The translations under genes were made by a program, and so were the position numbers. Shown in pieces: positions 12,178-39,559 of a stretch of 64,000 nt of DNA. The stretch's first letter is position 1. Every line of letters begins with the position of its first letter. Under the pieces are notes generated by a model, which made no database searches, was not told the DNA's origin, and saw nothing but the letters and a program-made list of their open reading frames with translations. Source of the DNA: Flavobacterium cupriresistens (GTDB taxonomy: Bacteria; Bacteroidota; Bacteroidia; Flavobacteriales; Flavobacteriaceae); contig NZ_CP087134.1 in NCBI RefSeq assembly GCF_020911925.1, forward strand, positions 2,170,001 through 2,234,000. Reading direction: 5' to 3'.

Positions 12178-12586
12178 GGTTAGCGCCGCAAAGGCACAAA
12201 GCCGCAAAGTCTTTATTATGCCATAGATTAAAAGGATTAAAAAAAATTTTGCGATTTCGCGACTTTGCGAGATTATGTAACGGTTAGCGCCACAAAGGCT
12301 CAAAGTCGCAAAGTTTTTATTATGCCACAGATTAAAAGGATTAAAAAAACCTTTGCGATTTCGCTACTTTGCGAGATTATGTAGCGGTTAGCGCCACAAA
12401 GGCTCAAAGCCGCAAAGTTTTTATTTTGCCACAGATTAAAAGGATTAAAAAAAACTTTACGATTTCGCGACTTTGCGAGATTATGTAACGGTTAGCGCCA
12501 CAAAGGCTCAAAGCCGCAAAGTTTTTATTATACCACAATTAAAAGGATTAAAAAAAAACTTTGCGATTTCGCGACTTTGCGAGATT
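12178..12586. repeat. four tandem 104-bp intergenic repeats (GCGCCACAAAGGC family)
   Basis: Units begin at 12178, 12282, 12386 and 12490 with a constant 104-base period. Each starts with GGTTAGCGCC and AAAGGC, contains CCGCAAAG, then the words CACAGATTAAAAGG and ATTAAAAAAA, and ends with GCGATTTCGC and CTTTGCGAG. The CTTTGCGAG end can pair with the AAAG..GCAAAG start. The fourth unit runs into unrelated sequence near 12586. A further stretch (12590-12650) repeats CGCAGTAAAAA and AGCGCCTTAGCGG. No reading frame is kept. Confidence 0.88.
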
Positions 12587-15127: not shown

Positions 15128-16372
15128 TTAACCAATCAACTGTGTAAATAAATCCTGATTGTCATTCAAATATTGAAATTCAAAGCCATTTGCTGTCATA
15201 TTCCATTTGATGGACATAATATCTTTTTTGTTTTTTAATTCTAAACCAACAACAACAGACCCTACTTCACGGTTGTTTTTTTTGTGAAACTGGAAATAAG
15301 TGATATCATCATCCGGTCCAAGAATGTTATTTACAAACTCTTTTAAAGCACCGGGACGCTGTGGAAATTGAATCATGAAATAATGCATCAATCCTTCGTA
15401 AAGTAAAGAGCGTTCCTTTATTTCTGCCGTTCTTTCAATGTCGTTGTTACTTCCGCTCACCACGCAAACGACATTTTTGTTTTTTATTTTGTCTTTATAA
15501 AAATCTAAAGCTGCGATAGTCAAAGCCCCTGCAGGTTCAACAACCATAGCTTCTTCATTGTACAATCTTAAAATGGTAGTGCAGACTTTTCCTTCCGGGA
15601 CCAGAATGATATCGTCCAGATTTTTGCGGCAGATCTCAAAAGTCAGATCACCAACTTGTTTGACAGCGGCTCCGTCAACAAATTTATCAATCGTTTTTAA
15701 TGCAGTGTTTTTATCTTCCTTAATTGAATTTTTCATCGATGGAGCCCCCTGAGGTTCAACGCCTATAATTTTGGTATCAGGACTCAAATGTTTAAAAACT
15801 TCAGATAAACCGGAAGCCAATCCACCACCGCCAATCGGTACAAAGACATAATCTATCGGTTTTTTATAATGGTCGAGAATTTCCAGTCCAACCGTTCCCT
15901 GACCCGCAATCACTTTTAAGTCATCAAAAGGATGGATGAAGGTTTTGTGGTTTTCCAGTGCATCAGCTGTGGCAGAGGCGTAAGCATCATCAAAAGTATC
16001 GCCGATAAGAACAATTTCAACAAACGATTTTCCGAATAATTGTACTTGTTTTACTTTTTGCTTTGGTGTTGTTTTGGGCATGTAAATTTTGCCTTTTATA
16101 TGCAGTAAGTTACAGGAGTAAGCAACGCCCTGCGCATGATTTCCGGCACTGGCACATACAATTCCTGTTGCTTTTTCAGGATCGCTTAACGAAGAAATTT
16201 TGTTGTAAGCCCCTCTGATTTTGTACGACCGGACAATTTGTAAATCTTCTCTTTTTAATAAAATGGTAGCTTTAAATTCTTCTGAAAGATTCAAATTTTG
16301 AGTCAGTGGGGTAGCGGCAACTACATTTTCGAGTTGTTTTTTGGCGGCAAGTACTTCGTTAAATAGATCCAT
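15128..16372 (-). CDS. ilvA: threonine ammonia-lyase (threonine deaminase)
   Basis: A PLP enzyme that deaminates threonine to 2-oxobutanoate, the first committed step to isoleucine. Counting from the ATG at 16372, the PLP lysine is Lys51 in SYKIRGA. The phosphate-binding glycine loop is in VPIGGGGLASG. The C-terminal quarter (MIQFPQRPGALKEF onward) is a single ACT-like regulatory domain, so at 414 aa this is the shorter allosteric form compared with E. coli (514 aa, two such domains). An in-frame ATG at 16396 would add eight residues encoded inside an intergenic repeat, so I prefer 16372 (MDLFNEVLAAKK). Upstream lies an isoleucine-codon leader and attenuator, which supports a biosynthetic and not a catabolic role. 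A truncated copy of its first codons is present upstream. Confidence 0.95.
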   Translation of the reverse strand: MDLFNEVLAAKKQLENVVAATPLTQNLNLSEEFKATILLKREDLQIVRSYKIRGAYNKISSLSDPEKATGIVCASAGNHAQGVAYSCNLLHIKGKIYMPKTTPKQKVKQVQLFGKSFVEIVLIGDTFDDAYASATADALENHKTFIHPFDDLKVIAGQGTVGLEILDHYKKPIDYVFVPIGGGGLASGLSEVFKHLSPDTKIIGVEPQGAPSMKNSIKEDKNTALKTIDKFVDGAAVKQVGDLTFEICRKNLDDIILVPEGKVCTTILRLYNEEAMVVEPAGALTIAALDFYKDKIKNKNVVCVVSGSNNDIERTAEIKERSLLYEGLMHYFMIQFPQRPGALKEFVNNILGPDDDITYFQFHKKNNREVGSVVVGLELKNKKDIMSIKWNMTANGFEFQYLNDNQDLFTQLIG

Positions 16373-16390
16373 GTTTTTTGTTTTATTTTT

Positions 16391-16449
16391 TGCCACAGAT
16401 TAAAGTGATTAGAAAGATTTAATCTGTGCGAATCTGTGAAATCTGTGGC
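16391..16449. repeat. CACAGATT palindromic repeat, copy next to ilvA
   Basis: GCCACAGATTAAAGTGATTA at the left and GAAATCTGTGGC at the right are inverted arms, with AATCTGTG repeats between. It lies between the attenuator terminator and the ilvA start, and would be in the 5' leader of the full-length transcript. An almost identical copy is at 16757-16815. Confidence 0.8.
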
Positions 16450-16480
16450 AAAAATTAGCTGTATTTAAATTATTTAAAAT

Positions 16481-16507
16481 AAAAAAACCTCCCGATTTGG
16501 GAGGTTT
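16481..16507 (-). terminator. attenuator terminator of ilvA leader
   Basis: On the minus strand AAACCTCCC, loop AAATC and GGGAGGTTT are followed by a run of T's (complement of 16481-16487). It lies between the isoleucine-rich leader peptide and ilvA, so read-through must be controlled. Its 5' arm can pair instead with the antiterminator strand at 16542-16550. Confidence 0.88.
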
Positions 16508-16541
16508 CATAAAATTGTATTTGTTTACTTCTTTATATAAC

Positions 16542-16572
16542 ACCTCGCCATTATCGCTGAATAGCAATAATG
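16542..16572 (-). promoter_or_regulatory. ilvA attenuator: leader hairpin and antiterminator strand
   Basis: A perfect 10-bp hairpin (arms 16549-16558 and 16563-16572, 4-base loop) covers the last Ile codons and the stop of the leader peptide. Right after the stop, the minus-strand sequence TGGCGAGGT (16542-16550) can pair with ACCTCCCA of the terminator (16498-16505) as eight base pairs with one bulged C. The two structures overlap and so exclude each other. This is the geometry of ribosome-mediated attenuation. Confidence 0.8.
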
Positions 16573-16610
16573 TTAATAATAGCGATACTAATGTTATTTA
16601 AATTCGTCAT
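16551..16610 (-). CDS. isoleucine-rich leader peptide for ilvA
   Basis: A 19-codon frame reading MTNLNNISIAIINIIAIQR, with seven isoleucine codons (six ATT, one ATC) and one Leu. It starts 19 bases after a perfect TACATTTG promoter box and is followed by mutually exclusive hairpins and then ilvA. The inferred role is sensing charged tRNA-Ile. When isoleucine is scarce the ribosome stalls on the Ile codons, the leader hairpin cannot form, and the antiterminator allows ilvA transcription. With ample isoleucine the terminator forms. The reading is direct; the mechanism is inferred from the well-known ilv and his attenuators of other bacteria. Confidence 0.82.
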   Translation of the reverse strand: MTNLNNISIAIINIIAIQR

Positions 16611-16629
16611 TTTTTAATTGTCTGAAAAA

Positions 16630-16637
16630 CAAATGTA
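16630..16637 (-). promoter_or_regulatory. promoter -7 box TACATTTG for ilvA leader
   Basis: A perfect TAnnTTTG box on the minus strand, 19 bases before the leader peptide start. No clear TTG is found 17-23 bases further upstream. It implies a very short untranslated region before the leader peptide. Confidence 0.6.
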
Positions 16638-16687
16638 TTAATTATTTTTTTATCTGCGTGTACTGAATTGTAATTTTAGTTGTAAAT

Positions 16688-16738
16688 CTAGATTCTGTTC
16701 CAATAGGTAGCAGTAAGCACTTCATTAAATAGATCCAT
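16688..16738 (-). pseudogene. truncated duplicate of the ilvA 5' end
   Basis: The frame reads MDLFNEVLTATYWNRI and stops. The first eight residues are identical to the start of IlvA and the ninth and tenth are close (TA versus AA); homology then ends. It is part of a larger duplicated segment (16711-16887) that also carries the repeat and terminator found before ilvA. It is a remnant, not a functional gene, unless the 16-residue product is translated. Confidence 0.75.
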
Positions 16739-16756
16739 TTTTTTGTTTTATTTTTT

Positions 16757-16815
16757 ACCACAGATTAAAATGATTAGAAAGATTTAATCTGTGTGAATCT
16801 GTGAAATCTGTGGCA
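16757..16815. repeat. CACAGATT palindromic repeat, upstream duplicate
   Basis: Nearly identical to 16391-16449 (a few substitutions such as TGTGTGAAT for TGTGCGAAT). The arms CCACAGATT and AATCTGTGG face each other. It lies downstream of the DUF4136 gene and its terminator. Confidence 0.8.
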
Positions 16816-16845
16816 AAAATTAGCTGTATTTAAATTATTTAAAAT

Positions 16846-16873
16846 AAAAAAAACCTCCCGATTTGGGAGGTTT
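16846..16873 (-). terminator. terminator of DUF4136 gene, duplicate of the ilvA attenuator terminator
   Basis: AAACCTCCC, loop AAATC, GGGAGGTTT and a T run on the minus strand, identical in stem and loop to the ilvA attenuator. It follows the DUF4136 stop by 16 bases and here works as an ordinary terminator with no leader peptide before it. Confidence 0.88.
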
Positions 16874-16889
16874 CGTAAAATTGTATTTA

Positions 16890-17435
16890 TTATTTATTTA
16901 CTTTTTTAACCGGAGGATATTGAGCTAAAATTTTAGAAACAAACTCGGTTACTTTTTCGTCTTTTTTGTCCACGTTTTTAGTCAGCGTTCCAATACCTTC
17001 ACCTTGCCAGATCATTTCTTTCTTTTTGGCGTCGATCAAATCAATGTATAAAGTACCTTCTGTAGAAGTAGAAACTGTAGTTTGTCCTCCGTACATCATG
17101 TAAGGATTCCAACCCCAGCCCCAGCCGTAACCCCAGCCAGCACTAAATTGATTTACATTTACCTGTTCTCTTGCTTTAGTAAAAATGTTTACTAATACAT
17201 CCGGATTGTCGCTTTTAGTAAAACCTTTGGCTAGCATTTGCTCGTCTATGGCACGTAGTATACGTCTTTTATCCAAATCAGATATTTCAACCTTATCAAT
17301 TCCGGGCTTAAAAAAAGCATACGTTTTATAAGGCGTGAAATCTACGTTTTTATCATAATCAGAATAAACACTAACGGTACTGCAAGAGGTTAGTATTAAA
17401 AGCAGAAAAATCGGTACTAATTTGAATGTTTTCAT
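16890..17435 (-). CDS. DUF4136 domain-containing lipoprotein
   Basis: A secreted lipoprotein: the signal MKTFKLVPIFLLLILTSCST has a clear lipobox with Cys. The DUF4136 pattern is present: VYSDYDKNVDFTPYKTYAFF near the start, LDKRRILRAIDEQMLAKGF in the middle, and LYIDLIDAKKKEMIWQGEG towards the end. A Gly/Trp/Tyr-rich insertion (AGWGYGWGWGWNPYMMYGG, around residues 104-122) is typical of flavobacterial members. The function is unknown. It starts 47 bases after hutU ends in the same direction, so it may be co-transcribed with hutU, but no functional link is evident. Its 3' end and terminator belong to a duplicated segment shared with the ilvA leader. Confidence 0.85.
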   Translation of the reverse strand: MKTFKLVPIFLLLILTSCSTVSVYSDYDKNVDFTPYKTYAFFKPGIDKVEISDLDKRRILRAIDEQMLAKGFTKSDNPDVLVNIFTKAREQVNVNQFSAGWGYGWGWGWNPYMMYGGQTTVSTSTEGTLYIDLIDAKKKEMIWQGEGIGTLTKNVDKKDEKVTEFVSKILAQYPPVKKVNK

Positions 17436-31334: not shown

Positions 31335-31401
31335 TTTCAAAATTTGAAAATAATTCCAGTTTTTTCAGGAGCACAAAAAAAGGGTTTTTCAGCACCATTT
31401 G

Positions 31402-31470
31402 TCCCGCTATTCGCTATATCTTTTCCCGGTTAAAGAAACCGGAAAAAGGATGCCGCTGCTATCGGGGCTA
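31402..31470 (-). ncRNA. candidate structured RNA element (possibly Flavo-1-like)
   Basis: A non-coding, GC-richer island between lysS and the next gene. On the minus strand it runs AGCCCCGATAGCAGCGG ... GCGAATAGCGGGA with an internal hairpin (CCGGTTT, CTTT loop, AACCGG) extended by CTTTTT/GAAAAG, and CCCG/CGGG closing the outside. I recall this pattern (CCCCGAT..GCGGCATCC ... AGCGAATAGCGGGA) as recurring between genes in Bacteroidota, and it may be the Flavo-1 motif; that name is from memory and unverified. It lies upstream of the lysS promoter, so it is not part of the lysS leader. Strand is inferred. Confidence 0.5.
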
Positions 31471-31614
31471 AACCAGAAATTTAATTTTCAGAAGCCTTTC
31501 GAGCATTTCTACAAGAAGACTGTGAAAATTTAAAACATAAAATAAATCGAAGTAAATCAACTAAAAATCTCAGTATCTTAGCCACTCAGTACCTTAGCAT
31601 CTCTAAAAAAATAA

Positions 31615-39123: not shown

Positions 39124-39223
39124 TCACTAATTATTTTTTTTGCCACTGATTTCAAGAAAGAGGGTTTACAACTTTGAGAAAGAGTCGCTAACTTTACAGG
39201 CCTATGAGCAAAGAAAGCCACAG

Positions 39224-39559
39224 ATTAAAGGATTAAAAGGATTTACAAAATCTGTGTAAATCCTTTTGATCAGTGGCAAAAAAAAATAATTCGTGTCAAT
39301 TGGTGAAATTCGTGGCAAAATGATGAAGAAGGCCATGAAAACGATGAGTCTAAATAACTTCTTTTTAATAACTTAAAAAGAATTAGATAGAATTAAAGTA
39401 TTAAAAGGATTTACAAAATCTGTGTAAATCCTTTTGATCAGTGGCAAAAAAATAATTCGTGCCAATTGGTGAAATTCGTGGCAAAATGATTAAGAAGGTT
39501 ATGAAAACGAGGAATCTAAACAGCTTGTTTTTAATAACTTAAAAAGAGTTAGATAGAAT
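39224..39559. repeat. 168/166-bp tandem duplication with hairpin and short frame
   Basis: Two copies (39224-39391 and 39392-39559) in direct orientation, differing by scattered substitutions and two A's in a poly-A run. Each has a strong hairpin (AAAAGGATTTACA, loop, TGTGTAAATCCTTTT), then CAGTGGC and GTGAAATTCGTGGC words of the same family as the 11-16 kb repeats. Each is followed by an 18-codon open frame (39320-39376 and 39486-39542) reading MMKKAMKTMSLNNFFLIT and MIKKVMKTRNLNSLFLIT. Confidence 0.85.

Follow-up and report, generated by a model that had tools for sequence, protein, structure and literature searches.

The locus described here lies in a 64,000-nucleotide stretch of the Flavobacterium cupriresistens genome (NZ_CP087134.1, positions 2,170,001 to 2,234,000), hereafter the window, whose numbering is used throughout. 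It holds ilvA, a DUF4136 gene directly upstream, and between them the following elements, all read on the minus strand, the strand having been left unstated in the first-pass annotation of this DNA.

16700..16900, minus strand: diverged copy of the antiterminator 3' half, the terminator, the repeat and the first ilvA codons (self-comparison of the window)
16630..16637, minus strand: −7 promoter box TACATTTG of the type TAnnTTTG (from the sequence)
16551..16610, minus strand: leader peptide ORF MTNLNNISIAIINIIAIQR with its stop codon; 19 codons, seven of them for Ile (six ATT, one ATC)
16532..16602, minus strand: sequestor (1:2), 16602-16582 with 16548-16532, around a 10-bp hairpin at 16572-16549 (fold and pair counts)
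16501..16546, minus strand: antiterminator (2:3), GAGGT at 16546-16542 with ACCTC at 16505-16501, and inner helices (pairing probability and pair counts)
16481..16507, minus strand: intrinsic terminator (3:4), AAACCTCCC-AAATC-GGGAGGTTT and a T-run, with a 9-bp stem and a 5-nt loop
16375..16462, minus strand: inverted-repeat element of the CCACAGATT type, in the gap between terminator and ilvA
15128..16372, minus strand: ilvA, threonine ammonia-lyase of 414 aa, the enzyme that opens isoleucine synthesis, ATG at 16372 (NF006390, 630.7 bits; TIGR02079, 624.5 bits; both above cut-off)

The promoter box (16637-16630) and the 19-codon frame with seven Ile codons (16610-16551) that the first-pass annotation had placed upstream of ilvA are present, as is the intrinsic terminator ahead of the gene (16507-16481), which extends partly outside the interval 16498-16637 assigned to the attenuator. 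The 10-bp hairpin at 16572-16549, described as perfect, contains one G-U pair. It was also said to share bases with the antiterminator and so to exclude it. The mutual exclusion holds, but it rests on the outer helix 16602-16582/16548-16532, because the 10-bp hairpin stops two bases short of the antiterminator core at 16546-16542. The pairing of the antiterminator with the terminator stem is likewise retained, over a longer extent than described, with GAGGT/ACCTC and inner helices spanning 16546-16501.

The gap from terminator to ilvA measures 108 nt in the window, about 100 nt in many relatives and 6-30 nt in some, including relatives of the conservation set with 18-27 nt. Inverted repeats of the CCACAGATT type occur in several copies in the window (16375-16462, 16740-16827, 39217-39450 and 12314-12451). 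The diverged copy at 16700-16900 is about 84% like 16335-16535 and sits 5' of the leader promoter, behind the DUF4136 gene; relatives show no second CCTCCC..GGGAGG hairpin within 700 nt upstream of ilvA. Close 3' of ilvA, on the same strand, a bacterial-like globin gene (15115-14654) may be co-transcribed. The own genome searched with an ilvA query returned the gene itself and four distant matches of 23-32% identity. A T-box leader was rejected: the Rfam T-box model has no match that reaches threshold anywhere in the window, and none with E up to 1 in 16340-16920. No other Rfam family reaches threshold at the leader, Phe_leader (RF01859) and Thr_leader (RF00506) scoring 34.2 and 22.2 bits with a threshold of 55 each. 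Elsewhere in the window a Flavo-1 RNA (RF01705) lies at 31396-31473 on the minus strand (77.6 bits).

Conservation was assessed in the best 80 of 141 ilvA matches in Flavobacterium, a set biased to close relatives. Among the 79 of these loci with 700 nt upstream, 78 combine an Ile-rich leader, 18-20 codons long, with a CCTCC..GGAGG terminator that follows the start of the leader by about 100 nt; L033 is without leader, and L036, with 118 nt upstream only, stands outside the count. Every Ile leader found upstream of ilvA in relatives is accompanied by a stem of the CCTCC..GGAGG type, and differences in leader ORF length appear as alignment gaps of 3 or 6 nt. The Ile codons of 79 leaders are 484 ATT, 118 ATC and 4 ATA, compared to 634, 200 and 224 in the large ORFs of the window (ATA 224/1058), a count that needs careful reading because related leader sequences are not independent. 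In 78 of the 79 leaders, window included, a TAnnTTTG box precedes the ATG by 17-22 nt, the one miss (L043) having 18 nt upstream only; the box corresponds to the −7 consensus of sigma-A described in F. psychrophilum (PMC9723704). An upstream TTG promoter element of the −33 type is found in nine of the 79 only. Position −3 of the leader start is A in 59/79, reported as a positive translation signal in F. johnsoniae (PMC6847099). When the intergenic strand is shuffled with its dinucleotides kept, 6 of 2000 versions contain a comparably Ile-rich small ORF, a figure in which terminator, pairings and conservation are not yet counted. A chance ORF was rejected on shuffles and conservation, conservation being the stronger argument of the two.

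A first structure check on the A1 alignment (74 distinct, very similar sequences of the 79 leaders) gave double changes in 2 of 19 pairs; it was uninformative and was replaced by 64 more diverse leaders (A3), from which ilvD- and ilvE-type leaders, secondary matches and L143 were omitted. For transcripts cut off at the 5' arm of the terminator, the pairing probability of this arm with the post-leader strand averages 0.74 versus 0.40 in shuffles, and 58 of the 64 rows exceed the shuffle mean. In pair counts over the same rows, which are related sequences while control (a) ignores kinship, 86.2% of the antiterminator cells are paired versus 36-49% in slid controls, and eight pairs are changed on both sides. 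The covariation score is 0.138 (slid controls at most 0.075). Slid by +1, the antiterminator is matched on some measures, with also eight both-side changes and 22 pair types versus 20. The sequestor has 82.9% of its cells paired versus 35-51% when slid; both partners are changed in 16 pairs, and its covariation score is 0.277 (slid controls at most 0.139); further sequestor pair types are not above shuffles (324/500).

Synonymous recoding was applied to 58 of the 64 rows as a control for the sequestor. The antiterminator strand pairs with the leader ORF with a probability of 0.85 versus 0.66 in recodings, higher in 52/58 rows, and the folding energy lies below the recoded mean in 57/58 leaders; in 30 of the 58, at most 4 of 80 recodings are equally stable. 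For the window alone, 27/80 recodings match its sequestor pairing and 4/80 its stability. Sequestor, antiterminator and terminator are three competing pairings that exceed most controls and show compensatory changes. The locus has the Ile-codon ORF, the intrinsic terminator and the antiterminator using the terminator 5' arm that define a ribosome-mediated leader-peptide attenuator; a sequestor-type structure that a stalled ribosome would break is present as a prediction, in agreement with the model described below. In many leaders a short frame starting at TAATG (MARCYI..., 16552-16529 in the window) overlaps the leader stop codon; it is shifted in L015 and L085 and is likely a by-product of the conserved pairing.

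The effect of the ribosome was modelled by masking its footprint in the partition function, an equilibrium model, for 60 of the 64 leaders (L156, L171, L175 and L181 were omitted, as their ORF extends into the antiterminator strand). The mean modelled antiterminator probability is 0.78 with a ribosome at Ile codons 2-12, 0.33 with no ribosome and 0.11 with a ribosome at the stop codon. The stalled state is above both others in 60/60 leaders. The result depends on the footprint, Ile codons being above stop in 49/60 leaders with a reach of 6 nt, 56/60 with 9 nt and 60/60 with 12 nt. For the window leader the modelled values are about 0.81 stalled, 0.70 without ribosome and 0.18 at stop, while a ribosome stalled at Ile codon 17 yields 0.20; therefore, compared with relatives, the no-ribosome state seems less well held, and the Ile codons early in the ORF would matter most.

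We are confident, from the evidence above, that ilvA is controlled by a ribosome-mediated transcription attenuator sensing the supply of isoleucyl-tRNA. The parts, their conservation, the pairing with compensatory changes and the modelled exclusivity were computed here; from them we infer the transcription start, leader translation, stalling and the isoleucine response. RNA polymerase would start just downstream of TACATTTG, and a ribosome would at once begin the 19-codon leader. When isoleucine is plentiful the ribosome would get to the stop codon and mask the antiterminator strand, letting the terminator fold and end transcription before ilvA. When charged Ile-tRNA is short it would stall on the run of ATT and ATC codons and break the sequestor helix; the freed strand could then pair with the terminator 5' arm and polymerase would continue into ilvA. 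Without translation the sequestor would tend to keep the antiterminator strand, favouring termination. The check proposed with the first-pass annotation, conservation of Ile codons and pairings in relatives, did not refute its reading, as 78/79 relatives retain the Ile-rich leader and the pairings exceed shifted-partner controls in cells paired and covariation score. As far as sequences can tell, ribosome-mediated attenuation is supported.

Other uses of the same parts were weighed. The leader could be translated and the RNA rearrange with control exerted on ilvA translation or RNA stability and not on termination. Bacteroidota initiate without a Shine-Dalgarno sequence, in a way sensitive to structure around the start (PMC6847099), and in some relatives the terminator is merely 6-30 nt from the ilvA ATG. 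We nevertheless find this mode of control highly unlikely, for about 100 nt lie between the two in the window and many relatives, and no Ile leader was found without a CCTCC..GGAGG-type stem. It is extremely unlikely that the hairpin merely ends transcription of the DUF4136 gene, with the Ile-rich frame an accident of A+T-rich sequence: the DUF4136 gene does lie directly upstream, with a second copy of the terminator behind it in this strain, and L244 and L245 have a terminator close behind an upstream reading frame with no leader found, but a conserved Ile leader and promoter box precede the terminator in 78/79 relatives, such frames are rare in shuffles (6/2000), the pairings carry compensatory changes, and leaders of the same kind precede ilvN2, ilvB2, ilvD and ilvE elsewhere. 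We give almost no credence to a peptide acting in trans, as reported for a leader peptide of another system (PMC7298713), or to a relic leader out of use, since despite the second short frame overlapping the stop codon (TAATG) in many leaders the peptide is variable outside the Ile run, that frame is shifted in L015 and L085, and most rows keep the RNA pairings.

The attenuator proposed for ilvA belongs to a known kind. Ribosome-mediated attenuators are known for the ilv, thr, his, trp and phe operons of Proteobacteria, and the leader of ilvA resembles them in its run of regulatory codons and in the logic of sequestor, antiterminator and terminator. It differs in belonging to another phylum, in lacking a Shine-Dalgarno sequence, in having Ile codons only as regulatory codons and in preceding a single gene. 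To our knowledge Bacteroidota do not use Shine-Dalgarno initiation and their transcription-translation coupling has been little studied, and the ilvA leader offers a comparative case of ribosome-mediated attenuation in this phylum. The Rfam Phe_leader model (RF01859) matches it below threshold (34.2 vs 55 bits), and no Rfam model reaches threshold. Attenuation of amino-acid operons was already suggested in the same genus: for F. psychrophilum a paper reports strong clues that leader peptides act as attenuators upstream of operons for amino-acid biosynthesis, and its main text has no occurrence of 'ilv' or 'isoleucine' (PMC9723704). Small ORFs reminiscent of leader peptides are mentioned for Bacteroides (PMC7366714). 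The Bacteroid-trp RNA motif (RF01692, PMC2864571), also a structured RNA of Bacteroidetes and linked to trp by its name, is a different motif with no match at threshold in the window.

A lone ilvA with such a leader had been considered less familiar in a flavobacterium, a remark to be adjusted: many Flavobacterium genomes have this arrangement, while in other Flavobacteriaceae genera ilvC lies directly upstream of ilvA in 27 of the 28 best-scoring loci, an IlvC-like frame being visible in the 28th (L103). The R1 search detected a leader in 2/31 loci (L086; L104 with an E-value of 0.21), a low yield that is probably due to ilvA being the last gene of an operon in other genera. The Flavobacterium survey comprised 120 IlvA matches in 117 of 299 genomes and at least 150 leader matches listed. 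Among the matches listed, the leader lies within 250 nt of IlvA in 67/120, at 251-1100 nt in 16, at 2.6 kb in one and at 5.4-7.0 kb in eight, and the other 28 of the 120 have no leader nearby. Twenty of these 28 were fetched, and in 14 of them other ilv genes precede ilvA, as identified by blastp in 13 and by eye in L250. Ten of the 14 operons have one to three leaders detected at their front; L246, L250, L252 and L253 have none there, the contigs of L250, L252 and L253 being too short for a decision. Neither ilv gene nor leader was found upstream of the lone ilvA of L242, L243, L244, L245 and L247, and L249 has 148 nt upstream only.

The codons of the leaders tend to follow the branches of the pathway. 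IlvA works for isoleucine alone, while IlvD and IlvE contribute to every branched-chain amino acid. At least two Val codons are found in 4 of 129 leaders before ilvA, ilvN2 or ilvBN2-ilvA (0/79, 0/14, 3/15 and 1/21) and in 14/14 first leaders before ilvD or ilvE (13 from Flavobacterium, one from another genus). Ten further ilv-operon leaders, counted separately and one per locus, have at least two Val codons in six cases and one in four; the second and third leaders of L138 have none. Leaders are thus mostly Ile-only before ilvA and ilvN2 and contain Ile and Val before ilvD and ilvE, a trend and not a rule, which fits the product logic of these genes. The difference suggests that regulation tracks the pathway split.

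The leaders before ilvN2 (alone or with ilvA) or before ilvB2-ilvN2-ilvA (L134) have a second complete module after terminator 1, formed by an Ile leader of 16-22 codons and a terminator with arm CCTTTCTC, in 36/36 fetched loci. Gene identity was assigned by blastp, and by Pfam for two, and a single genome (G536) contributes three of the 36 loci. The second-module antiterminator pairs with a probability of 0.69 versus 0.38 in shuffles, higher in 36/36 rows. Its probability in the masking model is 0.29 at Ile codons, 0.03 with no ribosome and 0.00 at stop, Ile codons being above no ribosome in 34/36 and above stop in 36/36. This predicts the same order of states as in the first module, with a weaker antiterminator. 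No TAnnTTTG box is found between terminator 1 and leader 2 (0/36 loci); leader 2 therefore appears dependent on read-through of terminator 1. Three leaders are found ahead of an ilvE-first operon in L138 and L260. Loci with two or three serial attenuators are L123-L129, L131-L134, L138, L141, L144, L145, L147-L150, L154-L158, L160-L164, L167, L171-L177, L248, L254, L255 and L260. The serial attenuators precede ilvN2, ilvB2 or ilvE-first operons, and ilvA of the window has one module. In some loci an Ile attenuator precedes ilvN2, which encodes an acetolactate synthase small subunit, and neither ilvB nor ilvA was recognised in the sequence fetched; these are L123, L124, L126-L129, L131, L141, L154-L158, L160-L164, L171, L174 and L175.

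On balance we lean towards the hypothesis that Flavobacterium genes for isoleucine are placed under arrays of one to three attenuators for the same amino acid that act serially on one transcript. Read-through would be the product of the steps, giving a steep response to starvation. The codons would be split by branch, mostly Ile-only for ilvA and ilvN2 and Ile with Val where a first leader precedes ilvD or ilvE, and the lone ilvA of the window would derive by reduction from an ancestral leader-leader-ilvB2-ilvN2-ilvA operon. Such a reduction could have led from the order leader-leader-ilvB2-ilvN2-ilvA (L134) through leader-leader-ilvN2-ilvA (L133, L144) to leader-ilvA (L146 and the window), as read from gene orders and not from a tree. 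Tandem arrays would be a natural test of how serial repeats of one sensor shape the starvation response. No account of tandem leader-peptide attenuators for the same amino acid was found in the literature searched, most subscription papers lying outside it. The arrays of one signal with branch-biased codons are the newest part of this work and may surprise a specialist. Their closest parallel in the papers cited here is mgtCBR of Salmonella, with two serial leader ORFs on one mRNA, one of which senses an amino acid; there the signals are ATP and proline, the stem-loops are unlike intrinsic terminators and the arrangement is called singular, whereas the Flavobacterium arrays repeat one amino acid and have an intrinsic terminator in each module (PMC3641672). 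A second terminator in tandem is mentioned for the rimP leader in a text where 'bacteroid' and 'flavobacter' are absent (PMC2965389).

Attenuators of this type extend to ilvD. The own genome has a second one before this gene, at G000:C1:3666571-3666701 (L117, L184), with the leader MQISIIIISVIVVNVINTSASGMV containing Ile and Val. Another match in this genome, at G000:C1:1050095 (42.5 bits), was rejected: inspection by eye revealed no Ile leader, and it looks like an ordinary terminator region. A crude detector applied upstream of ilvD, in the best-scoring loci among 71 (family) and 86 (phylum) genomes with a match, finds a leader and a terminator in 15/30 family loci, own genome included, and in 13/29 phylum loci, two of the 13 coming from the same genus. 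The opposite strand, used as control, gives 0/30 and 0/29. Two or more leaders are found in three of the family loci and two of the phylum loci.
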